Shown here: positions 31,934 through 62,702 of the stretch, piece by piece | How the letters are laid out: the number at the start of each line of letters is the position of its first letter | How positions within the stretch are numbered: position 1 is the first letter of the stretch | DNA from: Prorocentrum cordatum | Taxonomy: Eukaryota > Sar > Dinophyceae > Prorocentrales > Prorocentraceae | Direction: 5' to 3' | DNA: 64,000 bases | NCBI GenBank assembly: GCA_963575745.1 | Contig: CAUYUJ010017869.1 | Location: 157,910-221,909, forward strand | Notes under the pieces: model-generated | Databases searched by the model: none | Told to the model about the DNA's origin: nothing | Seen by the model: only the letters and a program-made list of their open reading frames with translations | Translations under genes and position numbers: made by a program

Positions 31934-32986
31934 TCAGTCCGAGCGGAACTGGCCGATGACGGGGTCATCTTCGACTTTGACGGCGCGCGCGCACGGAGTG
32001 CCGCCACGTAACCTCGTGGGAGAGGTTAATGCAGGAGCCCGTGGAAGTAGCTGCAATCTCCTCTGGACGGGTCTCCGCATCTGCACTGCGCCAAGAAATT
32101 GTTGCACCACTCGTCGTCGCATCGCATCAGCTGAGTCAACTGCCAGAAGTTCGGGATGGTGTCTGGGCGTTCTGCTTCCCCCAAAAACAATTCCATGACT
32201 CTGCGCTTCCGCCAGGCAAGCATTGCGGGGAGGAGGCCAGGAACGTGCCTGCGACAGGGTGCAACTGCCAAAAATCTGCGCACATGATTGAGTTGACACC
32301 TCCGAACGCTCGCGCGGACTCTTGCGCCTCTTGGACTTTCCGCGCCTCACCTTGTAAGTGTTTTTGACCCGCGCTGCTTTCGTGACCTGTTCTCCCAGCT
32401 TGCCCAAGAGTTCTGCGTCCATCATGCTGACCTCATCGATGATCATTACGCGCAATGCCTGGCACTTCATGGAAGGCTTGTGCATGTCGCCCAATCGGGC
32501 CCCTCCATCGTTCCCGGCGGGCATGCCGCTCCAGCGGTGAACCGTGCGTCCGTTGATATGCGCGGCCATTGCGTTCTGGAATGCCAGGCAGACGAACTGG
32601 GACCCGTGCTCCCAGCGGAGGCCGTCCTCCATGAATTGTCTCATCCACGCGATCACAGCGCTCTTGCCCGTGCTGGGAAACCCATGGACCAGGTCGAGCA
32701 GAGGCTCGTCGGGGCCGCCGTTGATGCGACCGCTCGCCCGTTCCCGCCTCTCGGTTTTCAGCCGCTCGGCGAAGTGCTCGAGGAAGTCTTGCCGCTCACG
32801 GTTCTCCCCAGACATGATGGCGTTCAAAGCCTCGTCGATGACTCTGTCATTTCTGCTTGGGTTATACATTGCGTGCCCGCACCGCTTCTCGTTGAACGGG
32901 TCCTCGAACTTGTCTGTATCCTTGGTCTGCGTTGTCAACGCGTCCAGATGGTCCTGTACTCGTTCTCGAACATGTTGCCTGGGCAC
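31934..32986 (-). pseudogene. Helitron PIF1-type helicase, N-terminal lobe
   Basis: Walker A is DLVHGFPSTGKSAVI (about 32690-32650), motif Ia includes CLAFQNAMAAHINGRTVHRW, and Walker B is VMIIDEVSMMD (about 32450-32420). After about 32350 the open frame is out of phase: the continuation SPAMLAWRKRRVMELFLGEA-like sequence with FWQLTQLMRCDDEW lies in another frame (32283-32026). This is an SF1B DNA helicase that unwinds DNA during rolling-circle transposition. The catalytic motifs are intact but the frame is broken. Confidence 0.85.
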
Positions 32987-37118: not shown

Positions 37119-37144
37119 GCAGTGCTCATTGCTGAATTGCGAAT
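37119..37144 (+). repeat. Left target duplication and terminal inverted repeat of the 20.4-kb insert
   Basis: 37119-37132 is GCAGTGCTCATTGC, repeated at 57576-57589. 37133-37144 is TGAATTGCGAAT, whose reverse complement closes the insert at 57564-57575. Beyond 12 bp the termini stay similar (GGGACGTTCG against GGGGTTTTCG). Because GC flanks both sides, the duplication could be read as 10 bp (AGTGCTCATT) with a 14-bp inverted repeat starting GC. Confidence 0.88.
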
Positions 37145-37930
37145 GGGACGTTCGGCGAGACGATTCGCCGACCACAGAGGCACTCCGCCGCCCGAAACCG
37201 CAAAACCAGCCAACACAAGCCAAACGGCGACGAAACAGCGGGAGTCAGAAACAATCGCGCCTACGCGCTTACCGCGGCCGAGGACGAAAGGACATCGCGC
37301 GCGCGCGCCAACCGCAGGGCTGAAACCGACGTGCTGGGCCGAGCCCGTGGGCGCGACAGTTACAGGTGGGGACTGCCCCTCGCCGAAGGGGGAGGAGGGG
37401 AAGGAGGAGAAGGAGGGGGAGGAGAGGGAGGGGGAAGCGGGCGGCGAGGGATGGTTCAGGGGCCGCGGGCACCGAGGGATATTTTAAGGGCCGCGGGCAC
37501 CGAGGGATGTTTTAGGGGCCAGCCCCTGCCCCCCCCCCTCTCTTCGAGAGCCTTGGAGGCACCCTTCCCCCCCATCTTCTTCGGCGGTTGGGCCTGGTTG
37601 TTTTTGGAAATCCTGGCATTGGCGCTCGGCTTTTCCTGCCGCTGAGCTTCCGCCTTTCCCTCTCCGAGGCCCTGGAGGCTTCTTTCTCTTCCCTGGTGGC
37701 AGGGGGCCTTTTTCGTGTGAAGGGGATTCCCCCCTGCGCATCGGGCGCCTGCGCGCGGCGGCCGCCGCGGGCCGCGCGCTGCCGGCCACGTCGGAGAGAC
37801 ATAGGGCCGCTAGCACCCGAGCATTCGAGGGGGAGGGGGAGGAGGAGGAGGAAAGCGGAAGGCTCTCGGCCCAATATGCACCAACCCAAGACGATTCCCA
37901 GGGGCTTCCCAGGGCGCGGATTTGTGCTGC
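37145..37930. other. No gene seen: G-rich subterminal region
   Basis: Contains GGAGG tracts (37385-37435) and two copies of a short repeat GGGCCGCGGGCACCGAGGGA (about 37460-37515). The rest is unique. Open frames have no recognisable content. Confidence 0.5.
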
Positions 37931-38322
37931 ACTTGCCAACCAGTCAACCCAACGAGCCCGACCAGCCAATCAACCAGCCAACCAGCCCGACCAATCAACC
38001 AACCAACCAGCCAACCAACCAGCCAACCAACCAGCCAACCAGCCAACCAGCCCAACCAGCCAACCAACCAACCAGCCAATCAACCACCAACCAGCCAATC
38101 AATCAACCAACCAACCAGCCCAACCAACTTTGCGCGGGACACCTGCTGGAGGGCAGTTTAGGTCACCCGTCCAACTTTTGCGCGGGACACCTGCTGGAGG
38201 GCAGTTCAGGTCACCCGTCCAACTTTTGCGCGGGACACCTGCTGGAGGGCAGCTCAGGTCACCCGTCCAACTTTTGCGCGGGACACCTGCTGGAGGGCAG
38301 TTTAGGTCACCCTAGGTCCAGG
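37931..38322 (+). repeat. (CAACCAGC)n minisatellite followed by four 48-bp repeats
   Basis: 37935-38130 is an AACCAGCCAACC-type array. From 38131 a 48-bp unit beginning TGCGCGGGACACCTGCTGGA recurs at 38179, 38227 and 38275, then runs into AGGTCCAGGCGTGCGATGGG. The same two blocks in the same order (array, then CACCTGCTGGAGGGC...AGGTCCAGACGTGC) form the units at 47.9-50.1 kb, so this is a member of that family with its middle part amplified. Confidence 0.88.
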
Positions 38323-38339
38323 CGTGCGATGGGCGAAAC

Positions 38340-39390
38340 CCGAGAGAATTATTCACTGAGTGGAGCTCCCCGTATGTGCATTCATTAGCATGGACCCGCC
38401 AGCCGCGAGCGTCTAGGCGCAAGAATGTTCGAGTATCATTGGCTGGAGTACGGTCTGGGAGGGAATCTAATTGTGACTGGGTTGGAGTGTGAATGAGTTT
38501 CAGTAGTATCAGGTCTCTGCACCTGAGCTTGGGGTTTCCTGGGGCCTCTTGAAACCTCTTGGGGCTTCCTGTAGCCTCCTGGGGTCTCGTGTGGCCTCTG
38601 GGGGCCTCATGGAGCCTCCTAGGGCATCCTGGGGAGGATTCGTGCCCCAGGAGAGGCCCAACCTGTAGGAACAGAGGTACATAAAACATGGCGGGTTGGA
38701 GCCACAGGCGAAGGGTAATATATCGGAACACACGTAAACCATCAAGGAATTGTGTTGTAGGGGAGGTTGAGTTTGTAGGAACATACGTACAACACTGTAC
38801 AACACTTAGGAGTGGATGCGCAGGAATAGGGCATTCTATATAAACATACGCACAGCACTTCGGATTCGTGCTCCAGGGGGGGGGGGGGGGGGCAATCTAT
38901 AGGAGCACGCGTACAGCACATGGGATTGGAGCCACTCCTGTGGCCTTCTGGGGCCTCCTACTCCTGGGGGCTCGTGGGGTTTCTGGTTTCCTGGAACCTC
39001 TTGGAGCCCCTTAGGGCCTCCTGGGGTCTCCTGTGGTCCTCTGGGGGTTCCTGTGGTCGTTTGTGGCCTTATGGTGCATCCTGGAGCCTGCTGGAGCATC
39101 CTGTGGCAGCCTAGCAGGATCCGTGGCCTCATGTGGCCAGCACAATAAGCAAGCCGCTCGACACATCCGTAAGATCTGGCACCCCTGGGGTGCGAAAGCC
39201 AGCGCCTCGCTCGAGATATCCTCAAGATCTGCTGCGAAAGCGGACGATGTCGGGCATGCAACCAGGCACATTATTCGATACACCCCCGCCATCTAGGCGC
39301 GAACGGGAGAGTGAGGTACCCCCTGGGAGCTCCCCCTTGGGGGTGTTGAAACCCGCGCTTCGCTCGATACATTCTCAGACTTTGCTCCGC

Positions 39391-39451
<61 letters not shown>

Positions 39452-39480
39452 AGCATCAGCAGCAGCAGCAGCAGCAACAT
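38340..39480 (+). repeat. Composite interspersed repeat, copy A (ends in (CAT)n)
   Basis: Order: ATTCACTGAGTGGAGCTCCC start, a tract of CCTCCTGGGGCCT-like units (about 38520-39120, with an internal second round), the block CGCTCGAGATATCCTCAAGA, CGATACA, then (CAT)n at 39393-39440 and CAG runs. The same order appears at 54279-55090, which lies inside an intron. The G-run at 38877-38892 interrupts the middle. Confidence 0.78.
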
Positions 39481-39932
39481 CATCACCATCACCATGACCG
39501 TCACAATCAGCATCAGCATCATCAGCATCATCGCCACCACCACCATGGCATAACAGAGCATAACGTAGCATACCATAACGTACCGCAACCTAACATATTT
39601 CGCTTGGGCCTTTGAGAGGCCTGGACAGAGGTCCGCTAGCCAGTAACTCCAGTAACTCCTCCTCCACCTCCTCCTCCTCCTCCTCCTACCTCCTCCTCCT
39701 CCTCCTCCTCCTCCTCCTCCTCCTCCTCCTACCTCCTCCTCCTCGGTCCCCTCATCATCCTCCTCCCCCTCCTCATCCGCCCTCTCCTTTTCCTCCTCCT
39801 CATCATCTTCCTCCTAACTACTCCTCCCAAGAAGTCCCCAGGGCCCCAGGAAGACCAAGATCCCAAGCGTCCCAAGTGGCCCCCTAGGATGATCGACTCT
39901 CCGTTCGCACCACACCCTGAGGCACGATTCAC
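39481..39932 (+). repeat. (CAT)n tail and (CCT)n microsatellite
   Basis: 39481-39610 continues the CAT/CAC-rich tail. 39655-39820 is a CTCCTCCTC run with minor breaks. His- and Leu/Ser-rich translations from this stretch are artefacts. Confidence 0.9.
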
Positions 39933-42333
39933 TCACGATTGATCTGACAACGGCGCCGCCGCTGCCGCCGCCGGCTGCAAGCTCTGGCTGACCGCCTCAG
40001 CCGTGTTCTTCGCCTCCCCCTCTGGGCACAACTGCCCCCACCCCTTGACCTGCTCGCAGACGTCCAGGGGCAGGCCCTGGAGGAAGCTGAGCCTCAAGCC
40101 GTGGCACGGATCCTTCGTGATCTCCCAGACGAGGTAGTGGGGCGGCATCACCAGCAACGAATTCTCAACGGCATTGGTGCCCACCAGGAACGGCTTCATC
40201 TTGCCGAGGTCGTCTTCGGAAATCTCCTTGAGGGCCCAGGTCTGCAGGCTCGCGGCGTTGATGTCGTCAACCTTCGTGCTGGCATGATCCTTCGCGAAAG
40301 CCAGGAGCTCGCCACACGGCGCGGCGATGGCCATCCTTTCGCCACCAACCTGGAAACGGGCCGTCGGCAAACAGTTGAAGTCTGGCCCGAAGGTGTTCTG
40401 CTTCCCAGCCACGCCGTACATCGAGACTCCCATCTTCGCGGCCAATTCCGATGACACTTCCTTTGGGGCAACTGGGAGATGCTCGAATAATTTGTTGATC
40501 GCGCCAGCGATGTCCTCCTTGCCGTTGCACTTCAGCTTGCAGTGCGCTCGCCCAGATACCTTCACTGGGGTTGAAGACAAATACCCCTGCTTGAAGATGT
40601 CGAGGTTCGTCTTAACTTCGGCCCCATTCGCGCTCACAATGAACTCCATGATCGAGCTGCACTTCTTCACGATGAACGGCTTGGTGAGGTCGGGCTTGTC
40701 ACTGAGAGCATCGGCGTCGGACTCGTATGCGTGCATCGGCTGAGCGTAGCTAAAGCCCTTCTCGAACATGGCGCCCGCGTCCTGCTTCGCGGCCGGCTGC
40801 TGCTGCTGCTGCTGCTTGGCAGCCGTCTTGGCAGCCGTCCTTATCTTCTTCTGTTCGTCTCTCGCTTTCTGTCTTTCCTCAGCTTTCTTCCTAGCCTCTT
40901 CCGCCTTTTGCGCCTTCTTCTTCTGGGTCTCGCGATCCTTCATGGCGGCCTTCAGCTCAGCGGATGCAGCGGCGAGAGACGATGCCAGCTCAGTGTATGC
41001 GACTTCGATGTCATTGAGCTGCAACTCCATCTGTTTGAGCTCATCTGGTGCCTTGGCCGCCTTCAACTCCAGAATCTTCGCGTGGAAAACTCGCAGCGTC
41101 ACCAACTTCTCTGGGGATCCGCACGGCTTATGCTCCATCGAGGAGAGGGCATCCCTCATGCGCTGGACGGTGTCGTCGAGGTCCGGCGGGGCTGGCGGCG
41201 AATCAGGCACATCCCCCCCGTAGCCCTCGATCACGATGTTCGCCAAGCTCAGCCTCTCTCGAACAACGGCCTTGTATTCCTCTGCGTCAGTCGCGTCCTT
41301 AAGTTCTTCCACATCTGCCACTTTTCATCCTGGCAACCGCATGCTTCAGCGAGGGCTGCACCTTGAACACCAGCGCACTTTTCCAAGAGTCGTGGGCTCG
41401 CAAGCGGATGAGCGACAAGTCGCCCTTCTTGCTGTCGCTACCCTGTCCCCCACTGGCGCCGCCGCCGCCCCCCGCCGAGCCGCTGGGCGTAGCCTTGGGG
41501 GCAGTCTTGCGCTTCACAGGGGTCCTGAGGTCGTCGTCGTCGTCGTCATCGGAAGCCTGGCCGTCGGTGGGAGCTGCCCTCTTACCAGCACTGGAAGACG
41601 CAGCCCCGTTCTTCTCCGCGTAGAGCTTGAAACCCTCGTCGGTGTCGACCGCCATGTCCCCGCTCTTCGCCTCCTTGCTGACCCGCTCGGCTCGATGGCC
41701 ACCCTTGGTCTCTTTAAACTCGTTGATGAAGGTCTTCACCCTGACTCGAACCCTCTCTGGATACTTCTTGTTGTCACCGTCCAAGTCGTAGTCAGTGGTG
41801 CCCTTGTACTTCTTCACAGCCTCGTTCCACTTTTCGGTGATCTCCTGCGGGGTGAACTTCTTTTTCAAGTAGAACTCTTCGTGTTCGAAGAGGTCCATCA
41901 TTTGGCTCTCATCGCCCGCCTGACTCACATCGGACTTCTCCATGATCTCAACCAGTCGGGCAAGCTTGTAGATTGGTCGGGTCTTACCACGCCCGCGCGA
42001 AGCACACGTCAACTTGTAGTCGTTCAGCATTTTCCTGAAGATCACGGGATTCTTCAAGCCATCTTCGTACTTATCCAGCCACCCGTTGATCTGCGCATCT
42101 TTTTTCATGGCATCCATCTCGCGCTTGTCGTCGTGGCAGACCGGGTTGTTGCCGCAGCATGCCCTCTCGGGGTCCAAGCAGATGAAGCACACCTTCTTGG
42201 CCGCCTTGGCACTGGGAGCGGCGCCGCTGCCGCGGCGGCTGGCGGCAGATCCCTTGCCTCTCTTCCCGCCAGGCGCACCCTCGGGAGGAAGAGCCGCCTC
42301 CTCCGCCTCGAAGTCCATGGCACCTTCTGCCAT
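39933..42333 (-). CDS. Unknown protein: Cys/His cluster, acidic and coiled-coil segments
   Basis: ATG at 42333 (AEGAMDFEAEEAALPPEG). Early on comes a Cys/His cluster, CFICLDPERACCGNNPVCHD, with zinc-binding potential, then a helical charged region (FTPQEITEKWNEAVKKYKG), a poly-Asp patch (41560-41540), and near 41330 a one-base shift in an AAAA run. The frame continues with VEELKDATDAEEY, a long coiled coil (KDRETQKKKAQKAEEARKKA, about 40950-40850), a CAG-encoded Gln run, and a globular C-terminal half (EFIVSANGAEVKTNLDIFK, VSMYGVAGKQNTFGPDF) to 39933, about 800 residues. I do not recognise it. It lies just downstream of the methyltransferase gene on the same strand within the 20.4-kb element. 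A partner role with that enzyme or the transposase is a guess. Confidence 0.6.
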
Positions 42334-42394
42334 GGTGGTGGCTTTCGATGGTCCGTATGCCCAACTGCTTGCCTGAGTAATTACGGCTATGGGG

Positions 42395-42470
42395 CCAATG
42401 TTTGATTTGGGCAATGTTTGATCATGATTTGGGCAATGTTTGACTTGGGCCATGGGTTTCATTGGAGCAA
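42395..42470 (+). repeat. TTTGGGCAATGTTTGA short tandem repeat
   Basis: The unit GATTTGGGCAATGTTTGATC occurs twice (about 42405-42445) with decayed neighbours (GACTTGGGCCATGGG, GGAGCAATGCGTGATC). It sits directly upstream of the gene that starts at 42333, so it would lie in its promoter or 5' leader. Confidence 0.7.
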
Positions 42471-42874
42471 TGCGTGATCTAGGCACTTTGATGCCATGCA
42501 TTATCTACATTGCTGTTGCCGCCCTCGGAGGAGGGAGGGCGAGATGGGAGAGAGGGGCGAGCGGCAGGACGTCTTGCGATGAGGAACCCTTGATGGGGAA
42601 CGACGTCCCTCCCTTGGAGGCCCCAGCTGAGACCATATGTACGTTTCTACGTTCCCTACGAGGGGGGCTCGAGGATCTTGGAAACTTCTCCGATATCAAA
42701 TTGGCCCTTATTCCAACGTTTTTTTATCTCTGGAAGGCGGAGGGGATTTCAACGGCAAGCGGTCTCTGACCGAAAGAATCGAGGCGTTCGGGCACAGGGC
42801 TCGGGCAGATGCGGGCCGCGAGGCAGCTGCAGGCTAGATGGCCACCACAAGGCCTATCACTGACCACCCGTACT

Positions 42875-44902
42875 CTAGTCGCTGTCACTGCCATCGATAT
42901 CGTCGCCCGCCTCCGCGCCGCCGCTCGCGATGAAGGCGTCCTCGGGATACGAAATAGTAAGGAGAACCTCCTGGCCCCCTGTGACCTCAGAGACTTCAAT
43001 GTCGTCGCCCTGGCCCTCTGCGACCTCGGAGACCTCAATGTCGTCGGCCTGGCCCTGCGTGACCTCAGAAACCTCGATGTCGTGGTCGCTCTGCTCGGAC
43101 GCATCGCAACTCAAAGAAGAATTCACCCTGCGGTAATCCAAGCTCAAGGTGCTACGCTGGACCGCCCGGCTCAGCACGTACCCGACCACTTCGCCCGGGC
43201 ATTGGGCATGCATGGCCAGGCCAGCTAGCTTCCTGATGTCGCTGGTCGAAATCACGTTCATCTTCAAAAGGTCGGGCCAGTTGCAGTCAGGCCGGTCGTC
43301 GCAAAGAAAAGGAAACGCTGGAATCCCTTGCATGACGAGGTGCTCCGCAGCCATAGCTGTCCGCTGTAAGCCGCTGTGGTACATGATCGAACCGTGCAGC
43401 AGCGGAGGCACGAACGGGCCAGGGCAGGAAAACCCAAGTTCCTGGTTGATGTCTGCCACGACGCCTGGGCCATACTGGCGTTCAGCATCACTGACCTGCT
43501 CGTTCGCGCGACGGCTCTGACTTGGTGTCAGCAACTTCAGGGAGTCGTACCTCGAAGACTCATCCATGGGCACCTTGCTCTTCTGCTTCGCGATCTCCGA
43601 CCACTCGGCCTGCTGTTGCGCGTCTGGGGCGCAGAAAAGATCCTCGGACTTCATCACGACCTTCTTGCTGTACAGCAGCTCGAACTCTTCTGGCGACCCC
43701 AACCACTCGAAGACGTCTTTCCGCAGCATGGCTGTGTACTTCCTCGGCCGTCGCACTGGCAGGCCGAACGTCCACGGCGAAACCCTGAAGACGGCAATGG
43801 TGCACCTGCCGAGCGCCCCCCTCCAACGAGAACGTATGGGAAGATGAGAGGGAGAGAGGGATATCTATATATATGTATACATGTATGGAGGGCACGTGTC
43901 CTTGAAGAAGTACTCTAGTATGCCCTCTGGGTGCAACTCGGTGATCTCGTGGATGACAACGAGCGGCCTGGTGCGAAGGATGCTCAAACACCACATGAGG
44001 AAGGTCGCGAAGTTGTCGTGGGACGTCTTGGCACCTGAGCCCATGAACGCAAATGCGTAACACTCGGTGCCCAAAACATGGATGGTGAGCGGCTCCGTGA
44101 AATCGTCATTCGGGAAATGCTGCACGAACGGTGGCGCTGCGTGGCCTGTCTGGATGTCCTTCATGACGCGGTCGTCTGGCAAGACCCTCTCCATGTTGGT
44201 CTTCATGAACTCCCACATGTCCTCGAACTTTTTGCGCCGCTGCGGCGGCTCCATCTTGTCGTCTGGCATCATCCTGTTGATCTCAGCTGCGACGTCCGGC
44301 GGGATCTGCTCCATGATGTCATTGAAGATGTGCGCCGCCCCAGTGCGATAGCCAGCGCTCAAGGCGATCTGGGCGGAAGGCGAAGGGTCCACCGAACACC
44401 ATATTTTAGGATGCGTTGGTGGGCACATGTCGTGAAAGGCACCAAGAGCAAGGCAAATGGACCGCTCACCATTGCCTGTCCCAGAATGATCAGAGAACAC
44501 GATTACGCCTTTACGCAAATTGTTCCTCAGGCACATCACTCTAGCGCGACAGTCAACTGAGTCGGGGTTGGTTGTGTCGTCAGCGAACTGATAGTGCCAC
44601 TTGAACGCATCTCGTAACGATGAGGGACCTGCTGGAAGATGATCCCGAGCTTCTGTGAAACTATGGCTGCCAGGATGCGCTTGCCCTGGCACTGCATTGC
44701 GCCGACCCTTCAGATTCAATGGGTCGGTCGCTCCCGACTCCAAGGTACGTTTGCCCATGAAGCCCCGCCGCTGGGCGGCAGCAGGGAAGCTCAACTTGCA
44801 AAAAATCACTCGACACAGTGATGAGCTTCGGAAAGGGAAAGGCAGCATCCAAACGAGTGTGGCAAGCGGTAAGGGGAGTTTGTGTGTTTCCAGCAGACTC
44901 AC
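42875..44902 (-). CDS. Cytosine-5 DNA methyltransferase-like protein, two exons
   Basis: Transfers a methyl group from S-adenosylmethionine to cytosine. Motifs in order: motif I-like GVIVFSDHSGTGNGE (about 44510-44465); motif II acidic strand IWCSVDPSPSAQIAL; motif IV region GTECYAFAFMGSG with the putative catalytic Cys (TEC in place of PPC); motif VI RPLVVIHEITELHP with Glu. Across a 90-bp intron comes motif VIII SPWTFGLPVRRPRKYTAML; then RTAMAAEHLVMQGIPAFP and motif X-like LAGLAMHAQCPGEVVGYVL. An acidic repeat tail (DDIEVSEV x3, about 43090-42960) ends it at 42875. Family assignment rests on motif order. Deviations at motif IV make catalysis uncertain. The start is uncertain; Met in MGKRTLESGATDP (about 44757) is one option. 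It lies inside the 20.4-kb TIR element. Confidence 0.78.
43806..43895 (-). other. 90-bp GT-AG intron in the methyltransferase gene
   Basis: Exon 1 ends ...AAGGACAC at 43896. The intron opens GTGCCCTCCATACATG and closes ...GGCGCTCGGCAG, and exon 2 opens GTGCACCATT at 43805. Removal joins FFKDT to CTIAVFRVSPWTFG in phase and restores motif VIII. GTGC is present at both borders, and the ends are loosely complementary (GTGCCCTCCA against TGGAGGGGGGCGC), as in small inverted-repeat insertions. Confidence 0.8.
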
Positions 44903-45402
44903 TCATACTCAGGCTCACCCTCAAACTCGCCCATCCATGGACTCACTCGCATTCAGACCAATTCGTTCGCTCTCACTCACAATCGAACTCCTTATCAATC
45001 AGACTCTTTTTGTTTTATCGCCTGCTTTGCCACGATGGCTGCATGACTGGGCCTGCCGAACACAAATATTCGGGTGCACTCTTACTACACGTCTAAGAAT
45101 ACGGGTACATATATCAAGATCGCACGTGCAAAAGACTAGGGAGGCCCCACATGTTAGTTAAGATTCGGTTTTGTTTCTGTGGGGCAGAAGAACGCACACT
45201 TCCCACGGCGGGTGGAAACAACGATCACACGTGCAGAAGACTGTCATACCCAGACTCTGTCATACCCAGACTCAATCATACCCTTTCTCTGGCATCCTTA
45301 CCAATCAGACTCGACCATACGCAGACTCGATCACCATCATCTCGAGCATCAATCAATCAGACCCAATATGCCTTGGAGGACCACCTTTGAAAACAGGCGT
45401 GC
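44903..45402. other. No gene seen: short repeats of CATACCCAGACTC
   Basis: Unique sequence with a few ACTC/CAGACTC-type short repeats (about 45240-45330). No family-like frame. Confidence 0.5.
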
Positions 45403-46110
45403 GTGTACGTATATACATATCCGAATACGTATACATGTTTTACCTTCGTGCGTGTCATGTTTCACCTACATATATACCTACATGCATACATACACACATA
45501 CATACATACACATACATACATGCATGCACGTGCATATACATACACACATATATGCGTGTATACACATATGGATATGAATGTACATGCACGTATTCATATA
45601 CATATGCATCGACATACACATATACATATCCATATACATGCACATATACATAGACATGCGCAAACACATACATTGTTGTTCCTGCCCCACTCTCTCCGAC
45701 CGCGCCGCTGACAGAATGCAAACACCTAGCTGTTCATACCCGACAGCTCCGCTGACGGGAAAAAAACACCTAGCTGTTTATAACCGACAGTTCCGCTGAC
45801 GGAAAGCAAGCATCTAGCTGTTTATACCCGACAACTCCGACGACGGGAAACAACAAGCACCTAGCTGTTTATACCCGACAGCTCCGCTGATGGAAAGCAA
45901 GCATCTAGTTGTTTATACCCGAAAACTCGGAGTTGTCGGGTACATGTGCAAACACATACATGCATGCATGCATGCATACATACATACATACGTGTATACA
46001 TACAACCATACATGTGTACACACCAACACACAACCATACACACATACACACACATACACACATACACACACATACAGACATACATACATACATACATACA
46101 TACACACTAG
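45403..46110 (+). repeat. CATA/CA microsatellites around five 43-49-bp repeats
   Basis: 45403-45690 and 45946-46110 are (CATA)n/(ACAC)n-rich. Between them a unit CACCTAGCTGTTTATACCCG followed by ACAGCTCCGCTGACGG recurs at about 45723, 45766, 45810, 45859 and 45902. The last unit ends in a hairpin, TACCCGAAAACTC then GAGTTGTCGGGTA (45919-45945). No coding content. Confidence 0.85.
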
Positions 46111-46560
46111 GCTAGAACGGCCCCATTCTAGGCTAGAACCGCCCCTTTCTAGGCTAGAACGGCCGAACGGCCCCGTTCTAGGCTACAACGGCCCCGTTCT
46201 AGGCTACAACGGCCCCGTTCTAGGCTAGAACGGCGCCGTTCTAGCCTAGAGCGGGGCCGTTCGGGGCCGTTCTAGTCTAGAGCGGGGCCGTGCTAACGAG
46301 ACGGCCTGTGCATGAAAACCCGCCAGTAGGGGGGGGGGGGGGCAAGTTCAGCCCGCATGAGGGCTAATATACACCCGCTGGCTGCTCGAGATAAACCCGA
46401 ACGGGCCTACTGAGATAAACCCGAACGGGCCTGAGATAAACCCGAACGGGCCTGAGATAAATCCGCGGGGGCCGAAGATAAACGATAAACCAACTGGCGG
46501 CCTAAGATAAGCCCGAGCGGACCTCAGATAAACCGATGCACCCACGGGGGCCTGATATAT
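46111..46560 (+). repeat. Two palindromic tandem repeat arrays
   Basis: 46111-46305 has about eight copies of the 21-bp unit AGGCTAGAACGGCCCCGTTCT; each holds a hairpin (AGAACGG with CCGTTCT), and the last copies are inverted. After a G12 run (46330-46341), 46385-46545 has about seven units of GATAAACCCGAACGGGCCTGA, again with a CCCG/CGGG stem. Confidence 0.88.
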
Positions 46561-46599
46561 ACATGTATATGTACACATACGTACATACTTACATACACA

Positions 46600-46635
<36 letters not shown>

Positions 46636-47900
46636 TATATACATACATACATACATACATACATACATGCATACACACATGTTTGAAGGGTGCCATATCA
46701 TTTTGAGCAGCCATGCTAAAAATAGGCTGGATGAGACCTCCAGGTGGGGGCTGAGAGCCTCTCGGGGCATGATCGGGGCTCGGGGCGGTGGATTCGGAGA
46801 CCCCCAGAGCCGCACTCACCAACCAAGAGGCCCCAGGGAACCCCAGTCAGGTATAATGGCACCCAGGAACCCAGGCAGGTAACAATGGTCTGCAGGGAAC
46901 CCCAGTCAGGCACAATGGCGTCGGCAGAGTCGAAGGCTACTGATGAGCACCCTTGGGATGCTCTGGACTCGTGCGCCGTCTCAGGCTGGCCTGAAACAGC
47001 CCGCACCACGCGCGTAAGGTTGTCTAGGAAATCTTTGTCGAGACGGCCCATGTGGGCTGCAGCAGCACTGTTAGTGCTTGCAACTGCTGGAGATTCTGAT
47101 CCCGAACCTACGTGGCTGAGGCAGCGGCTGAGGAACAGTTTTTTGCGACGATTTAGGCCATCATCTTGGGGTTTGAACGGGATTGAGTGGATTCTGGGTT
47201 TTCAACCAGGACTTTGGCCGTCATCCGGGGATTTGGGCCGTCAGCCGGCGATTTGGGCTGCAGCCGGGGATTTGGACCTTCAGCCGGGAATTTGGACTGT
47301 CAGCCGGGGATTCTGGTGATCCTGGAGGAATCAGCTTCCAACCTCCGGGTCATTCGGGTCATTCGGGTCATTCGGGCGACTTCGGTCCCGAAATGGGGCC
47401 CCATTCGGGTCATTCGGGCGTCGCCCGAAACTTCGCTCGATACATTCGCTTGGAGTTTCGGGTCATTCGGGTCATTCGGGCGCCCCAGTGGACGTCGCCC
47501 GAAACCCCCCGAAACCCCCCGAAGGTTGGGGCCCGCCCGAAACTTCGAGGCCATTTTGTCCAGACGCGCCCAATTTCCCCGGCGCGAAGCCCGTTTCCTC
47601 CCGATGCGCCCAGTTTTCCCGGCGCGAAGCCCGTTTTGTTTGGATGCGCCAAGTTCTCCGGCGAACGCGCCCAAATATCCTGATCTGATTTTTTGGCTTG
47701 GAAAACCACGAAGAGACGCCCCGAGCTTTCGAAACTTTGCAGACGCCACCCAAAAACCCCAAAACCATCTTTTCAAGCAGCGCTCAGAAAGAAAGGCCCA
47801 AGAGCGCACAGAAGGAGCCGCAGGGGCCCAAAGAGGCCCTTCCTCCCAAGTGGGCCCCTGAGACAACCTCCAGGGGCCTCCCGAGGTATGGATCTGCGAT
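46561..47900 (+). repeat. Repeat-rich spacer: CATA run, GGAACCCCAGTCAGG, GATTTGGGCCGTCAGCCGGG and GGGTCATTC arrays
   Basis: (CATA)n at 46570-46680. A unit GGGAACCCCAGTCAGG..AATGG repeats at about 46836-46920. A 24-bp unit GATTTGGGCCGTCAGCCGGG repeats about five times (47230-47310). The 9-bp GGGTCATTC repeats at 47346-47372, 47403-47425 and 47460-47482. A ~52-bp unit with CCCGGCGCGAAGCCCGTTT repeats at 47575 and 47627. No gene recognised. Confidence 0.75.
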
Positions 47901-50150
47901 GCTGGGGCCTGCCATCCAATCAACCTGCCAACCAATCAACCGAACCAGCCAACCAACTAGCCAACCATTCAACCAACCAGCCAGCCCAGCCAGCCAACCA
48001 ATCAACCAACCAACCAGCCCGACCAGCCAACCAACCAGCCAAATGGGGGCACATCTTCGTCCAACTGTTACACAGGGCGCCTGCTGGAGGGCGGCCTAGG
48101 TCGCCTTAGGTCCAGACGTGCAAAGGGCGAAGCCCGATGGATTCGCACAAGAACGCCAGCAGAAGTCAATCCATCCAAGTCCGAACGTGGCGGAACTCGA
48201 CGAACAGTCGAGAACAAAAATGAGAGGCATAATGAAGTCAAAGTGCGTTAATTCATGGAAGTTGCCAGGGAATAGCACGTCAACTCTGTCTCAGGATATA
48301 CACCTTGTATATGTTTTTTTATGTATATGAATGGATGAATGTGAACTTGAATTTGGACATGCGCATGTAGATGCATGCGCAGGTGCTCCTGCCAACCAAT
48401 ACCAAACCATGGGGCACATCTTCGTCCAACTGTTACACAGGGCGCCTACTTGAGGGCGGTTTCGGTCGCCTCAGGTCCAGACGTGCAACGGGCGAAGCCC
48501 GATGGATTCGCACAAACATGCAAGCAGAAGTCAATCCATCCAAGTCCGAACGAGGCCAAACTCGACGCACAGTCGAAAAAAAAATGAGAGGCACAATGAA
48601 GTCAACGTACGTCAATCCACCGACGTTGCCAGAGAACAACACGTCAACTCTGGTTCGGGATATACTCATGTAAAATGTATATGTTCGGACATATGTATAT
48701 GAACGACTATATTTAAGTTTGAATTTGGATATGTATATGTAGATGCATGTGCAGGTGCACCTGCCAACCACTACCAAACCATCCAACCAACCAGCCAAAC
48801 AGGGGCACATCTTCGTCCAACTGTTACACAGGGCGCCTGTTGGAGGGCGGCTTAGGTCGCCTTAGGTCCAGACGTGCAAAGGGCGAAGCCCGATGGATTC
48901 GCACAAGAATGCAAGTAGAAATCAATCCATCCAAGTCCGAACGAGGCCAAATTCGACGCACAGTCGAGAAAAAAATGAGAGGCATAATGAAGTCAAAGTG
49001 CGTTAATTCATCGAAGTTGCCAGAGAATAGCACGTCAATTCTGCCTCGGGGTGCACATGTTAACATGTGTAAACGTATATGTATGTATATATATATATAT
49101 ATGTGTAAATGAATGGGTGGGAACTTGACTTCGGATATGCATATGCACATGTATGTGCATGTGCACCTGCCAGGCAATGCCAAACCAGCCAACCAACCTG
49201 CCCAACCAATCAGCCAACCAACCAACCAGCTCGACCAGCCAACCAATCAACCGACCAACCAACTTGACCAGCCAACCAACCAGCCACATGAAGGCACATC
49301 TTCGCCCATGTGTTACACAGGGCACCTGTCGGAGGGTGGTTTAGGTCGCCTTAGGTCCAGACGTGCAACGGGCGAAGCCCGACGGATTCGCTGCAAAGCC
49401 AATCAATGCAATTCAATGTATCCTCCTCTTCTCCCGTCCTCCTCATCCCCCTCCTCCTCCCCATCCTCCTCCTAGCTCTGCTGCCGCCCAGCTGCAGCCG
49501 CTCCTGTGCTGCGCGCCCCTGTTCTCAATGGGGCCTCCCAGGGTGCGGATCTCCGCGGCTGGGGCCTGCCAATCAACCAACCAACTTGCCAATCAACCAA
49601 TCAAACTAGCCAACCATTCAACCAACCAGCCAGCCCAGCCAGCCAACCAATCAACCAACCAACCAGCCCGACCAGCCAACCAACCAGCCACATTGGGGCA
49701 CATCTTCGTCCAACTGTTACACTGGGCACCTGCTGGAGGGCGGTTTCGGTCGCCTCAGGTCCAGAGGTGCAAAGGGCGAAGCCCGATGGATTCGCACAAG
49801 AACGCCAGCAGAAGTCAATCCATCCAAGTCAGTCCGAACGAGGCCAAACTCGACGCACAGTCGAGAAAAAAATGAGAGGCATAATGAATTCAAAGTGCGT
49901 TAATTCATCGAAGTTGCCAGATAATTGCACGTCAGCTCTGTCCCAGGATATACACATTGTATATGTTCTTTTTAAATATATATATATATACAGATATCTT
50001 TATTTATGAATGGATGAATGTGAGCTTGAATTTGGACATGCGCATGTAGATGCATGCGCAGGTGCACCTGCCAACCAATACCAAACCAGCCAACCAACCA
50101 GCCAAATGAAGGCACATCTTCGTCCAACTGTTACACAGGGCACCTTGTCA
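47901..50150 (+). repeat. Long composite tandem array, six units
   Basis: Each unit has (CAACCAGC)n, then GGGCACATCTTCGTCCAACT, CACAGGGCGCCTGCTGGAGG, AGGTCCAGACGTGCAA, GGGCGAAGCCCGATGGATTC, an inverted repeat around TCGACGCACAGTCGA, AATGAGAGGCATAATGAAGT, a TATATG-rich spacer, and GCGCATGTAGATGCATGCGC. Units start at about 48047, 48412, 48803, 49291 (truncated), 49695 and 50111 (truncated). A second leader (CAGGGTGCGGATCTCCGCGG) introduces the array at about 49544 and in altered form at 47873 and 37905. The array ends directly at the 3' end of the candidate transposase gene. Short ORFs through it are not genes. Confidence 0.9.
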
Positions 50151-50158
50151 TTGCATTG

Positions 50159-53100
50159 TCAGTCGGAACTGGAACTGGACGTGCCTGAGGTGTCTGAGGA
50201 CGAGCTGGGCTCCTTGGCCCTGCCCGCCTTCGCCTTGGCCGCTTTGGCCTTAGCCTTGGCCGCTGGAGGCTTTGCTTTCGCGGCTGGCGCTGCTGGCGGA
50301 GCAAGAGGGGCAGGGGCGGCAGCGTCGGCGACTCCCATGGCGTGAGCCTCTGGCGGCCCCTCGTACTCGTCGGGAAGGTTCTCCAACATGCCCTGCTCGA
50401 TCTCCGCGATCTCTGGCATGTCCTCAACTGAAACAAGGTCTTTCATGTGATCTGCTTTGCTTCTATTGCGAGTGGCCCAGTTGCACCAACAACGAATTCG
50501 CCAGAGTGCGATCTGTTCATCAGCTTCATCCTCGAACTGGAATGTCAATGTCTTGGTGCACTTGATGCGTACATTGTGCGGCTTAAAGGGGCAGGTTGCC
50601 TGCCATGATGGATTGACAAAGTGGCCCTTCTTATTGATGGTCTCGGGGCGGTAGGTGATCCTGAAGGCCCCCCACTCGTGCGTCTTGGCGTGATACTCCT
50701 GGCAAGGGCGAGGAGGCCGTCGCGGCGCCTTCGCCGCCGGCGGCGCTGGCGGGGGGTCGTCGTCGCCGTCCGCGGCGCCCTCGGAGTCCTCTTCGCGGTC
50801 GTCGTCTCCATACTCACCATGTTCATCGGAATCGTGACCATGGGCATCGCCGCCATCAGCGTTCTCCCACTCGGAAGCTGCGTCGTCATTGGGTACTAAT
50901 CCAACGTCTTCGGGTAGTGCAGCTCGACCGACGTCCATGAGAGCAGGGCGCATCTTGCGACGCCGCTGTACGTCCCCCACTTCGGCCTCGAATTTAAGCG
51001 GCAGCATTGTTAACGTGTCTGGCGTTTTCTTTCCATCTATTACTGAGATCACATCAGCGTAGTAGGCGACTGGCTTGTTGTGGGCGATAGATTTGACACC
51101 GAGGTCGACCAGCTTTGCGCGGTTCTCCTCGACCCCCACAAGTGCTCGCAAATACGAAGCCATTATCGTGACGCAGTGCGGGCGGAAATACCATGTCTTG
51201 TGCAAAGGAGGGCCGTCCTTGTTCATCTCGTCATCGTCGGGTATAGCAATACTCAGGGGAGGAGGAGCCCTCGCTCCTTTTTGCCAGGGCAGTGCAACCC
51301 ATCCACGATTCCCTAAGTAATCCATAAGTTCCCAATGTGTCCATTCTCCCCTGTCCTCCAGCATTCGATGGGTAAGAACGTTTTCCTCTCCCGACAAACG
51401 AATCTCCACCTGCATAGTGGACATGCCAACGTCCGTAAATTGTCATCGTGCGTCGCCGTCGTCACCCACTGCTTGTCGCGTGACGTACCCGAGACGATCC
51501 CAATCTTGAAGAACCAATTCTTGATGCTCTTGATGTGCAGCGCCCCGCTTCAGCAGATAGTACTGGCCAGATCCATGGTAGGCTCTGTTCTTCAGCATCT
51601 CTTTCACAACCAGCTCAGCGTGTTCGCGAGAATCCTCGGCCATCACTGGGAGCGTGTAAGAGGGTTCCTCTTTTGAGAGCTTCCAGACAGCAGCGTCGAA
51701 CAAACTGTCGTTGACAATCGCGAGTGCACCTGCTAGGGGGCCACATGCGAACCCCACCCCTACCCCCACGATTTCTGAGGGGAAGGGTGGGGTTCACTTC
51801 GTTCGGGAGCTCCCGAGCGAAGTGAACCCCACCCTCCCCCTTAGAAATCGCCGGGTGTTGGGGTAGGGTTTGCATGTGGCCCCCTACCTGCCACGTCGCC
51901 CGCTGTGCTGTTGCATGGCCTGCCATTTGTCATCGCAAAGCAGTCGTCCCCATCCCAGCGCGTAATATCGAACAATGTCACTGCGACGTCGGAGCGCCCC
52001 AAGTGAGCAACGGCGTCCCCCCTCGCTCGCTTCAGGAGCGCAGGATAGAAATGCTGCACTTTGAACAGAATTACTCCAGTAGGGATGTCATCGATCTTCG
52101 GCGGGCCGACTCCGAAAGGCACGATAAGCTGCCCAGCATCCGATAGCCTTGCCCGGCCGTCAATGTCGCCTTTCTCGTAATCCATGATCTGTCCACACGC
52201 GACTAATGTAGTGCGGTCTTGGCCTATGGCCTCAGATAATCGTCGAAATGGAGACTCGCCTACATAGTCAACGGGCAATGCCGCAAGAAGCCACTCCTGT
52301 CGATCGAGTGTAGTGCGGACATGTTCCAGAGCAGCCGCCTGCAACACATTCGACTCGGATTCCCGCGGCCTGCCCACTGGCGCGGGCCTGCCTGGCGGCG
52401 CGCCACCTCCCAAGCTCGCCAATTTCAGGTCGGCGAATTGCGATGTGGAGTCAAGCCTGTAAACGACGCTGTCAAATAGAGGATGCGGTATCTCTCCCGT
52501 CGCGTACTCCTCGAAAGCAGCGTGGCGACGCAGTCCTAAATGCGCGGCAACCCAGTGAGGCGATCTGCACTTTTCGATATTGTTGACAATGCCCATCACC
52601 ATGTCTGGATCATTGTCAAAGAGCTTGAACATCTCTGGGATCCTGAGCGCCTGGCTTACGTAAGCTCCACTATGGTGGCGGGCCTTACTCGTGGCTTTCT
52701 GAACCAGCGCATGGAGGCCTTCGACGCTCCGCTCGATGATGGGGACCAAAGCCAAGCCGCACAACTGCGACCGAAGTTCCACGAGCTGAGGATCATCTAA
52801 AGAAGTGCCAGCGGCAAACAACTCCAGTAATTCCCGCAACCGAGACCCATGCTCCAAGAATTTGCGAGTCACATAGTGCGTCTCGCGGTCGGCCACGCGT
52901 GCATACAAACCCAGACAAGAGATGGCAGCTTCCCTGGCGATGGCCTCCTTCGCATGGGCTACCCCACACAGCGCGTAAGGCAAGGTCGTCCAGAAGCCAA
53001 ACTTCAAAGCCATCATGAAATTTAAATGCCTGACGCCCTCTGCGAAGTCATCCTGGATTCGTGCGCGGGCAGCCGCGGATCTCAGTGGGGCAGTTATTTC

Positions 53101-56100
53101 AAGTAAGTTCATCCCGAACGTGTTCTGACACTCCTGCAAGAAAGTCGAAAGACAACCTTGAGCCATCTCAGGGGCACGGCGGCCGCGCAGGGGGCAGTCG
53201 CACCTCACGCAAATATCAGGTACATCCCAATACAGGTCGCCGTCAGCGGATTCTGGACTAACGTGGCAAGGACATCCCTGCACCCAATAGTTCAAGTGGT
53301 TCAAAGTAGTCATCAGCAAGCGGAGCATGCCCATGTAGCTCCACAGTTCTTCATTGGCTACAGCCTCTGCGAAAGTGTGCAGCTTGGATCCGAAAGACTC
53401 GCCGTCCTTTTCACCATTCTCGTCTGCCCGTGTCCCACCAGACGCCCGGCGCTGCAGAAACTGCCTCGTGTTCCAAAATCTGCGAATGCAGCGCTCTAGG
53501 GGCTCTATCTCTGCGATGAAATCCGAGACGCTCATCCATCTCCAGTGCAATAGTTTTGATTCGAAGGTTCTGAACCGACAAGCAAACGGCCTCGACGCTG
53601 GCGAACTGAAACATGTTGCAACGAGCGCTTCTCTGAGATGTTTCTCCTTAAGGAAGTTCGCGAGAGCTTTCATGCCTGGTGTCATTCTTCCAAAATTTGT
53701 CATGCTCTCCGTGACATCCTTGGAGATGTTGTGGAGTATGTGGAGGCTCCCAGGAACTTGCAACGTGGGGGTCAAATCAAACTTCAGCGGATTGATCGCT
53801 TCGTCGCCTGACTGGCCGTCGTCCCCCATCCCGTCGGGAATCCCGTCGCCAGCGTTGTCAGCCTCGAACTCGAGCTTCACGGCGTGAGGGCAGAGTACAT
53901 CCAATCGATGCTTCATCTTCCCGAGCCCAGCTTCAACGCCAAAGTCTGTGGTGAAGCTCAGAATGCGGCGAACCCAATGTTGCATGAAAGAACCGCTCAA
54001 TAAAAATAATTGGTGCGCCAAGGCAGCGGCCTTATGAGTAGCGTTTGTATTTCGATATCCGAGCCCCGCTGGAGGGGACCTCTCTGTCACGCGCGCCTCC
54101 TTCACCCTGTTCAACAGCTCACTCACGCGCTCGGCCATGGAGTCGGTGATGATCGCACTGTCCGACTCTTGTCTGAAAAAGTTGAGCGTGTCGATAAGTT
54201 CGCACATCGACGCGTGCAGGTCCGCCATGTCCCCGAACCAAATGTGCGACTCTGTCATCAACCAATCACGCCCGCCTTGCCAAACAAAGAAATGATTCAC
54301 TGCGTGGAGATCCCCATATGTGCACCTACTAGCGTGGACCTGTCCGCCGTGAGTGTCCAGGCGCAAAAAATGTCGAATATTCACGGCCGTGGGTATTGAC
54401 GGTCTGGGAGCATCTTGGAGCCTCCTGAGGCCTGGAGCTTCTGGGGGCCTCCTGGAGCATCCTGGGGCATACTGTGGCCTCTTGAATCTTGTTGTGGCCT
54501 CCTGGAACCTCCTGTTGCCTCCTGGAGCCTGCTGGAGCCTCCTGTGGCATCCTGGGGAGGATCCGTGCCCACCAGTCTGGCCACCAAAACAGGCAAACCG
54601 ATCGAGACATCCTCAACTTCTGCTCCCGCTTGGGGGTGAAAACGAGCGCCTCGCTCGAGACATCCTCAGCATCTGCTCCGACCGCGGAGAATATTGAGCA
54701 TGCCAACTGGCAAACCGCTCGAGACCCCCCCGCAATCTTGGCGCGAATGGAGGCCGTGAGATACCCTTGGCGGCCCCCCCTTAGGAGTGCTGAAGCCAGC
54801 GATCCGTTCGAGACATCCTCACAATATGGCCCCCTCTGGTCATCATCATCATCATCATCATCATCATCACCATCATCACCATCATCATCATCATCATCAC
54901 CATCATCACCATCATCACCATCACCATCATCACCATCACCGTCATCATCATCATCATCGTCATCATATGTTCATCACCATCGCCATCACCATCATCATCA
55001 TCATTACCATCATCATCTTCCATGATCGTCATCATCATCAACATCATCAGCATTATCATCATCAACACCATCAGCATAGTAACCATCATCATCGTAGTCT
55101 GAGCGGGGGAACGGGCGCAACGAGGTGAAGTACCCGAACCCTCCACCCACCGTCTCTTTCCCCCCTCCGAGGCCCCCTCCACCCTCCCCATGCGAGCTCC
55201 ACGGAGAAGAAGGGGGGAGGAGGGCATGGCAACCTCACAGCATTGCGCTGTTATTTCTCTCTGGTGCCTTGCGGCGAGCTGTCCGAGAGCATGAAAACCA
55301 CGCAGTCGCACTCCATGAGAGGAAGGTGCATGCCCCGTCGTTTCAACATGTAAGCTGCGTCCACCATGATCCTCCACCTGGGAAGCTGCGACGCGTCTGG
55401 CACGGGCATACCCTCAACCATTTCCTCGAGTGACTTGGAGAGTTCGCGAGGAAAAAACGTTCGCACAGCCATCTTGAAAACCTTGTTCAAGTCCCTATCG
55501 TGCAAAAGCTGGCTGCATGTGAGGACTGAGTGCAGAACGAACCAACTGGCGAAGCGTCCATGATGCTCGTCGACTCCAGCTGCCCCAACTCGAAGGTGAC
55601 AAAGCCTGGCACGTTTGCCGCCCTTTTCCACTCTGTGTGCAAGCATATTCTGTTTCGAGAGCGTGTGCGAGCAACGAAGCGCCCACTGGCGGAAACGCTC
55701 GAGTTCGTCATGCGTCTCTTGGCGCTGCTCCAGGTCATCGCTGATGCCGTCTCTCGCAACATTGCCCAATGCATGTGCCAGTGCTTGAAATGCAGCTGAA
55801 TTGAAGATTAACTCTTGGTCGCCATCTGGGCGGACGATGGTGCGTCGAAGTTTGCGCAACGGCCGAAGTGGCTTAAGTTGATGGTCTGATCGGCGGCTCA
55901 AGCTGAAAGAAATCGAATCAATCAGACCACCCGCCACCATGTGCGCCAGAACAGGGGGTAAACTGCAAACAATCACTTCATCATGCTTCAACGTGCCATC
56001 AAAGATGCCGCACTGTCGCCAATTCCGTGCAACTTCGCCCATACTTTCACGGCACCTCTGTATAGTCACGTCACTCGGCTTGAACCAATTCCACCGCAGA

Positions 56101-56516
56101 ACATGCAGGTCCAGGTCTGGAATTGCCACCACTCCTGTTCCAAAAGGTGCGGCAGCCAATACTTGCCAGTGTGCGCGCTGCCAGCTGGGACCCTCCAAAT
56201 CAAACCACACGCTGTCCATGCCAACTGCATCATGATACTGGGCCGTCCTGCACGGGCCCAAACGAAGTAGTGCCGCCCCAACTATCTTTGCAGACCCACT
56301 ACCCTGCATAGCCTGGTGAATGTCGTCGGCGAAACCTGACAAGAGCGTGGATGAGCGGAGCCTTGTCCGCAAAAATTCCGCCGACGTTTTTGAAATACTG
56401 CCTATTGATCTCATTTGTGGCCCACAGCTTTCTGGAAGCGACCAGCGCACATGAGACCTATCAGGACCTCGCCCCGTCCGGTGTCGGGTGCTGAGCAGCA
56501 CGATGAAAGATTCCAT
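50159..56516 (-). CDS. Candidate transposase of the 20.4-kb element, multi-exon
   Basis: Coding blocks in order: 56516-55268 (GIFDGTLKHDEVIVCSLPPV ... CDCVVFMLSDSSPQ), intron 55267-54276, 54275-51888 (GRDWLMTESHIWFG; RRILSFTTDFGVEAGLGKMK; LQVPGSLHILHNISKDV; LHWRWMSVSDFI), intron 51887-51730, 51729-50159. Two Asp-bearing beta-strand motifs (MLSDSSPQ; TTDFGVE) could be the first two acidic residues of an RNase H-like DDE core; the third is not obvious. The last block has a Cys/Trp module (WQATCPFKPHNVRIKC..., ALWRIRCWCNW) resembling WRKY/FLYWCH-type zinc DNA-binding domains, and an acidic/Ala-Lys tail. A lone in-frame TGA is at 51443-51445. Proteins with these motifs are, to my knowledge, abundant and unnamed in dinoflagellates. 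The transposase role is inference from motifs and its place inside a TIR element. The 5' end may lie further upstream. Confidence 0.55.
51730..51887 (-). other. 158-bp introner-type intron: an inverted-repeat element
   Basis: Nearly all of it is two arms of about 75 bp (51734-51806 and 51810-51886) that are about 90% complementary and meet at GGGAGCTCCC. The tips are TAGGGGGCCACATGC and its complement, flanked by CCTGC on both sides (target duplication). On the minus strand the exon ends GTGGCAG, the intron runs GTAGGGGG ... CCCTAGCAG, and the exon resumes GTGCACTCG; splicing joins NSTAGDVAG to ALAIVNDSLF without loss. The splice donor and acceptor use the inserted ends together with the duplicated target bases. 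Confidence 0.9.
54276..55267 (-). other. 992-bp GC-AG intron containing composite repeat copy B
   Basis: GCCTTG occurs at both borders (54274-54279 and 55266-55271). Removing one copy plus the insert joins DSSPQG to GRDWLM in phase; the donor would be GC and the acceptor AG. Inside lies the same composite repeat as at 38340-39480: ATTCACTGCGTGGAGATCCC (54295), CCTCCTGGAGC-type units, CGCTCGAGACATCCTCA, then (CAT)n at 54839-55090. The insert therefore looks like a mobile or duplicated repeat that is spliced out. Confidence 0.75.
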
Positions 56517-56893
56517 ATTGGGCCAAAACGGCTATCCAGACCGACTCCGCATGGCAAGATTCACTATCACTTCCGCCGTTTCCGCCAACCTATTTCACTC
56601 ACTCAGTTCCTGCACTTTCCGCTTGGCCTTCATCCGGCTTCCGCGGCCCTTCTGGAGTCCATTCACATACGGAACGCGCGGAGTCCACGTTCTGGATACT
56701 CGCGCGGAAAGCCACTGGCCAGCGCGTCCGTCCACGTTGGGCCAAGCTCTGGAAGGACATGCGGCCACATAGTTATCCAGCTCTCGTCCACTTCCCTGCC
56801 TTGGGACGGCCACACCATAAGGGCCCACGTCTCTTTTTATGCTTCGTGTGGAGTGCTCATACTGTTATCTTACGTTGTCTCCCTCTCTTTCTG

Positions 56894-56957
<64 letters not shown>

Positions 56958-57085
56958 GAGAACACTTAAAAGGCTTATGAGGCCCCTTGGGGCCCCAACT
57001 TGGGGCTCCTGAGGCTCCTGAGGCTTCTCAGACGATCCTTAAGATCTTGGGGCCTTCTCAAGGATTTCAGCGAATACTGCGGATC

Positions 57086-57137
<52 letters not shown>

Positions 57138-57563
57138 CCACGGCCGCGACGATGACGGCGACGACGGCGGCGACGGCGACGACAATGACGATGGCGTCGG
57201 CGCCGACGGCGGCGGCGGCGACAACGAAGACCACGACGACGACGAACGGCGGCGGAGGAGGAGGAGGAGGAGGAGGAGGAGGGACGAGGAGGAGGAAGAG
57301 GAGAAGGAGGCCGAGGAGGAGGACAAGGAGGAGGAGGAGGAGGAGGAGGAGGAGGAGGAGGAGGAGGACGGCAAGGAGGAGGAGGAGGAGGCGGAGGAGG
57401 GGGAGGAGAAGGGAGGAGGAGGAAACGTCGGTAAAATTCTGGAAGTGGCCGTAGCGGTGGCGACGGGGCCTGGACATGCTCTACGGCCCTAGTTTGTTCA
57501 CGAACACGTTCGTTGGGGCCTCCCCCAGAGGGTTCCAGACCCAACACCTAAACGAAAACCCCT
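56517..57563. repeat. Upstream region with (CT)n, (ACG)n and (GGA)n tracts
   Basis: 56517-56880 is unique and may hold a further 5' exon of the transposase gene (a short frame to 56828 reads LDNYVAACPSRAWPNVDG), unproven. (CT)n runs 56889-56955, (ACG)n 57086-57137, and GGAGGA tracts 57250-57425. The insert's right terminal repeat follows at 57564. Confidence 0.8.
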
Positions 57564-57589
57564 ATTCGCAATTCAGCAGTGCTCATTGC
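57564..57589 (+). repeat. Right terminal inverted repeat and target duplication of the 20.4-kb insert
   Basis: ATTCGCAATTCA (57564-57575) is the reverse complement of the left terminus TGAATTGCGAAT. GCAGTGCTCATTGC (57576-57589) repeats the sequence at 37119-37132. The latter is inside the Helitron frame, which breaks off here after IPMSIGNEHC. Confidence 0.88.
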
Positions 57590-62620: not shown

Positions 62621-62654
62621 ATGTAAGTGTGTGTGTGTGTGCGTGTGCGCGTGC

Positions 62655-62702
<48 letters not shown>

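Follow-up and report, generated by a model that had tools for sequence, protein, structure and literature searches.

We examined a window of 64,000 nucleotides (nt) from the dinoflagellate Prorocentrum cordatum (contig CAUYUJ010017869.1, positions 157,910 to 221,909, assembly GCA_963575745.1), in which a large element with terminal inverted repeats (TIRs) lies inside a Helitron-like repeat. The element carries three genes, two of which encode a hAT-like transposase and a putative C5 DNA methyltransferase. See Table 1 for the features, in window coordinates, as elsewhere in this text. The window belongs to a 4.13-Gb assembly of 21,875 contigs, and its G+C content is 60.0%; that of the genome is given as 59.7% (PMC10666404).

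Table 1. Features of the element and its surroundings
Feature	Coordinates	Strand	Basis
PIF1/AAA_30 helicase piece, Helitron-like host sequence, outside the element	31934..32986	-	profile match
Left target-site duplication, 8 bp, GTGCTCAT	37122..37129		sequence and other copies
Whole element, 20,449 bp	37130..57578	- (three genes on minus)	ends set by four other copies
Left TIR, 18 bp, one base different from the other nine ends	37130..37147	+	copy comparison
Gene 3, Cys-rich then Lys/Ala-rich stretch	39933..42333	-	window frame interrupted near 41318-41330
Putative C5 DNA methyltransferase, 597 amino acids, intron 43895-43806	42875..44758	-	P0006 identity, P0009 profile, fold search
hAT-like transposase gene	50159..56531	-	splicing modeled on P0001
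Transposase intron 2, 158 nt, GT-AG, one inverted repeat over almost its whole length, introner-like	51730..51887	-	P0001 model and folding
Transposase intron 1, 992 nt, GC-AG	54276..55267	-	inferred from homologue P0001
Right TIR TGCTGAATTGCGAATAGG	57561..57578	-	copy comparison
Right target-site duplication, 8 bp, GTGCTCAT	57579..57586		sequence and other copies

A sequence-only reading of this DNA had described a direct repeat, GCAGTGCTCATTGC, around inverted termini. Both are present: GCAGTGCTCATTGC lies at 37119-37132 and 57576-57589, and just inside its copies are TGAATTGCGAAT (37133-37144) on the left and ATTCGCAATTCA (57564-57575) on the right. The assembly contains the joined 26-mer a single time and lacks its reversed control. 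A census of exact 10-bp inverted repeats abutting exact 8-bp direct repeats returned eight structures in the window, seven of them low-complexity; the only one to survive the low-complexity filter was 37130/57578. Sixty dinucleotide shuffles put through the same census gave two unfiltered matches altogether.

The exact ends were set by other copies. Searched at the protein level, transposase exon 2 has at least 58 matches in the assembly, including four further copies that are 98% identical in this exon (C1925, C17478, C17042 and C21129, the last of which is split by a frame break into two matching pieces). TGC precedes TGAATTGCGAATAGG on both sides of all four, and the duplications outside TGCT...AGCA are CCCCCCCC (in a run of C, where 8-10 bp are possible), CTCGGACC, CTTGGGGG and CTTCAAAA. 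These copies are 20,412, 20,445, 20,373 and 20,418 bp long. Their comparison fixes the TIR at 18 bp and the duplication at 8 bp, and it shifts the ends from where they had been drawn to 37130 and 57578. The 18-bp end is found at nine places in the assembly, every one an end of the five copies, and the tenth end (left, in the window) differs at one base. As the end is confined to these copies, the assembly search showed no short relative that shares it exactly. The duplication is 8 bp in all seven elements examined, namely the five copies and two diverged relatives described below (C4669 and C2147), with the single ambiguity in the C-run. The sequence-only reading had put it at 10-14 bp. Its version with 14 bp duplicated and inverted ends of 12 bp would imply a new superfamily. 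The 14-bp repeat is exact in the window, but such a parse leaves just two matching bases in each of the four other copies, whereas an 8-bp parse suits all five and TGC and GCA are present at every end. The other copies thus refute the 14-bp duplication, and we give that version practically no credence.

Papers on P, hobo and Galileo suggested a palindromic target preference, GCA-N8-TGC. The hobo preference is reported to extend 3 bp past the duplication (PMC3276498), and the 8-bp duplication of the P element, a point of likeness to our element, lies within a 14-bp palindromic target pattern (PMC4168063). We rejected this candidate, as the four other sites lack the pattern.

We also looked for unfilled target sites. 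Joining both flanks at the target gave a 263-nt query with at least 40 matches in the assembly, comprising its own two halves at the window locus and 38 others, each of which spans the junction. Sixteen of these 38 uninterrupted matches cover the full 263 bases at 77-83% identity; the remainder are partial, at 70-78%. With the four other copies, they bear out the proposal of a roughly 20.4-kb TIR element inserted in a Helitron-like repeat. No DNA shared by the insert and its flanks was detected within the window at E 1e-5. On the minus strand, the interrupted host frame ends in ...IPMSIGNEHC at the right copy of the repeat and is taken up again, in phase, with YGHVH at the left copy; HYIVKKDVAWLE, a few bases further on, is in a different frame. 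There is therefore a small frame change just inside the left flank, separate from the insertion. In favor of the tentative Helitron label is the helicase piece downstream in the host sequence; Pfam gave no match for the frames that flank the insertion, and it recognised no Rep domain in the host sequence.

The transposase gene was modeled on P0001, which is 45% and 43% identical to the window transposase. Its three exons (56531-55268, with the first ATG at 56516; 54275-51888; and 51729-50159) give 1,740 codons, interrupted by a single in-frame stop (51445-51443). The stop is missing at the equivalent codon in all four other copies, and C17042 has one gap in its exon 3 piece. The window copy probably cannot make a full-length transposase. 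About 50 further relatives are present in the same genome at 26-64% identity, many in long open frames (for example, C17982, C1758, C4892, C19766 and C3403). One P. cordatum member of the family, P0004, carries the UniRef name “RNA-directed RNA polymerase,” which its sequence does not support. Intron 2 forms a near-perfect hairpin of -143 kcal/mol, against -64.8 +/- 4.1 for shuffles (z -19.1), and it resembles the introner elements reported for the P. cordatum genome (PMC10666404). Separately, the left part of the element (38347-39546) resembles the intron 1 region (54291-54995) at 68-74% identity, perhaps through an old internal duplication.

In the sequence-only reading, the element's length and duplication fitted no standard superfamily, but the predicted fold and key residues of the transposase family and the 8-bp duplication are hAT-like. 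The predicted fold of the relative P0003 has an RNase-H-like core with a helical insertion as in Hermes, although mostly helical models can score high by chance. Hermes scored far above ISCth4 (7.5) and the P element (6.5) in a comparison set that held no KDZ structure. Among 13 family sequences, the first catalytic D is present in 12, the second D and the [RF]W pair in all 13, and E in 7; the sequences without E end before the site, skip it or diverge there. D, D, RW and E are all found in the window translation, in the order seen in Hermes, hobo, Ac and Tam3, and the duplication falls within the hAT limit of up to 8 bp. Pfam hAT profiles gave no match to the family at E 1, nor did the Pfam KDZ or CxC profiles, which we take to be present in the library searched. 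Sequence searches of Pfam, NCBIfam, PHROGs and PDB returned nothing notable for the family. The element shares 8-bp duplications and short TIRs with hAT elements (PMC6027215), but it differs from them in its size of 17-20 kb, its several genes and a much longer protein with a C-x-CH region. Its ends, TGCTRAATTGCG, also depart from the TIR consensus [T/C]AGNGNNG, which derives from a plant hAT set (PMC6027215). Because neither this consensus nor a Pfam hAT profile fits, we call the transposase hAT-like and do not file it as a hAT member.

The same mismatches could instead mark a separate DDE (Asp-Asp-Glu) superfamily, for example near KDZ/Zisupton or P, that is related to hAT in fold only and also makes 8-bp duplications. 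Zisupton duplications are likewise 8 bp (PMC12730594), and the C-x-CH ... CPLxGRRA stretch and a C-terminal extension of about 900 residues would suit such a group, as would the unusual ends and the silence of the hAT and KDZ models at E 1. We find this rather unlikely, as the RW pair is placed as in hAT and Hermes stands well above the other two structures, KDZ being absent from that comparison. A virus-derived element (Polinton-like or from a giant virus) or an assembly artefact seems very improbable. Size, several genes and the frequency of methyltransferases in viruses would fit a virus. However, in the ten frames searched, Pfam recognised neither capsid nor polymerase nor integrase, the transposase exon and P0009 (see below) had no relative in the viral contigs searched, and the duplications are 8 bp, not the 6 bp of Polintons. 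Five independent flanks with precise duplications also speak against this rival.

The methyltransferase gene is supported by a P. cordatum protein, P0006, with 467 of 467 amino acids identical and the same splice. Pfam gave no match for the window protein, and P0006 and P0008 match no methyltransferase profile. The assignment comes through the homologue P0009 (28% identical to the window protein, E 6.5e-40), which matches the phrog_116 DNA methyltransferase at E 4.6e-7 and PF00145 weakly, below the cut-off, at E 0.082. In a fold search with P0009, the first 26 of the 50 structures listed are C5-type methyltransferases; the model used has a predicted local distance difference test score of 37 and is too poor to count by itself. 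What we take to be the catalytic-loop Cys is present, in a GTEC motif where Glu replaces the usual Pro. A EukProt sequence labelled Pyramimonas sp. (P0007) is identical to the methyltransferase at 288 of 289 positions and extends into a variant of its intron; the label is likely contamination or mislabelling.

The methyltransferase frame is open in all five copies (1,794 nt including the stop, 98.6-99.3% identical to the window). The ratio of nonsynonymous to synonymous rates (dN/dS) in ten pairs is 0.51-2.58, and below 1 in eight; with only 1-6 synonymous and 6-14 nonsynonymous differences, no clear selection is seen. A ratio near 1 among young copies, together with the numerous weak methyltransferase matches elsewhere in the genome, would be expected of a host gene that was picked up passively and plays no part in the element. 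We doubt this reading, as the gene is intact in five of five copies while both other genes are disrupted in the window, and it also accompanies the transposase in diverged relatives. In C4669 and C2147, the transposase is 74-75% and the methyltransferase 71% identical, with order and strand unchanged and a gap between the genes of 4.4 kb, compared with 7.0-7.1 kb in the five copies. By mutual comparison, these elements are 17,121 and 17,116 bp long and have the ends TGCT[A/G]AATTGCGCAGT and the 8-bp duplications TCTCCGAG and AGCGCGCC; an exact-repeat scan for ends of this subfamily found none.

In all, there are at least 32 methyltransferase matches, 13 of them on the same contig as a transposase match (both match lists are lower bounds). 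Six of the 25 distant matches lie within 20 kb of a transposase match, against 0.0146 expected under uniform placement, and 19 are not near any listed one. The linked loci are C19766, C4892, C1758 (twice), C13522 and C14101; C19766 and C4892 look duplicated, as do the two C1758 loci, leaving about four independent. In C14101, the methyltransferase gene is on the other side of the transposase. These distant matches are weak, at 24-33% identity and E 2e-6 to 7.5e-4, with one extra piece at 62%.

Taken with the ends, duplications, copies, filled and unfilled sites and gene order, all observed directly, this makes it very probable that the element is a large DNA transposon from a hAT-like lineage that moves by cut-and-paste and carries, besides its transposase, a putative C5 DNA methyltransferase and one more gene. 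It is unusual by gene content, not by duplication length. We infer the chemistry of the two enzymes and the role of methylation. In this reading, the transposase, whose RNase-H-type D, D, E core contains a long insertion of helices, would recognise the 18-bp ends and cut the element out. Insertion at a new target with an 8-bp stagger would then produce the 8-bp duplications. The methyltransferase would most likely mark element DNA, so that a newly moved copy might blend into methylated host chromatin; alternatively, the mark may regulate transposase expression and end recognition. The open methyltransferase frames and the two-gene linkage in diverged lineages were likewise seen directly. Whether they reflect an undescribed, old, hAT-related lineage of giant transposons, with a lasting transposase and C5 methyltransferase pair, self-set methylation in the transposition cycle, and at least two closely defined and several distant families in one genome, is in our judgment evenly balanced.

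Elements with DNA-demethylating enzymes in fungi and retrotransposons with DNA methyltransferases (DNMTs) in dinoflagellates and charophytes are already published. The fungal TET/JBP-bearing transposons, including hAT7, are a precedent as DNA transposons with a cytosine-modifying enzyme (PMC12730594). However, their enzyme removes or oxidises 5-methylcytosine, whereas ours is a putative methyltransferase in a dinoflagellate. The DNMT retrotransposons of Symbiodinium and charophytes share with our element a C5 methyltransferase on a dinoflagellate mobile element, but they are LINE and DIRS elements and not TIR DNA transposons; marine-virus DNA transposons encoding DNMT are also mentioned there (PMC5890265). 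In a literature search limited to openly licensed PubMed Central (PMC) papers, we found no hAT-like cut-and-paste transposon with its own putative C5 methyltransferase. If active, the element would tie transposon mobility to two dinoflagellate traits, unusual methylomes and large genomes, and the precisely known ends are ready markers for testing whether it still moves.

The third gene is a single 797-codon frame in C1925 and is open across the fetched pieces of the three other copies; the window copy, which differs by 4 nt, is out of frame. All its Pfam matches were below the cut-off. Scans for tRNA and Rfam families found nothing. Inside the element, 47873-50145 holds an array of direct repeats, each several hundred bases long, that have diverged and are 80-88% alike, and a GTGTGCGT-type simple repeat occupies the end of the window (62627-63999).
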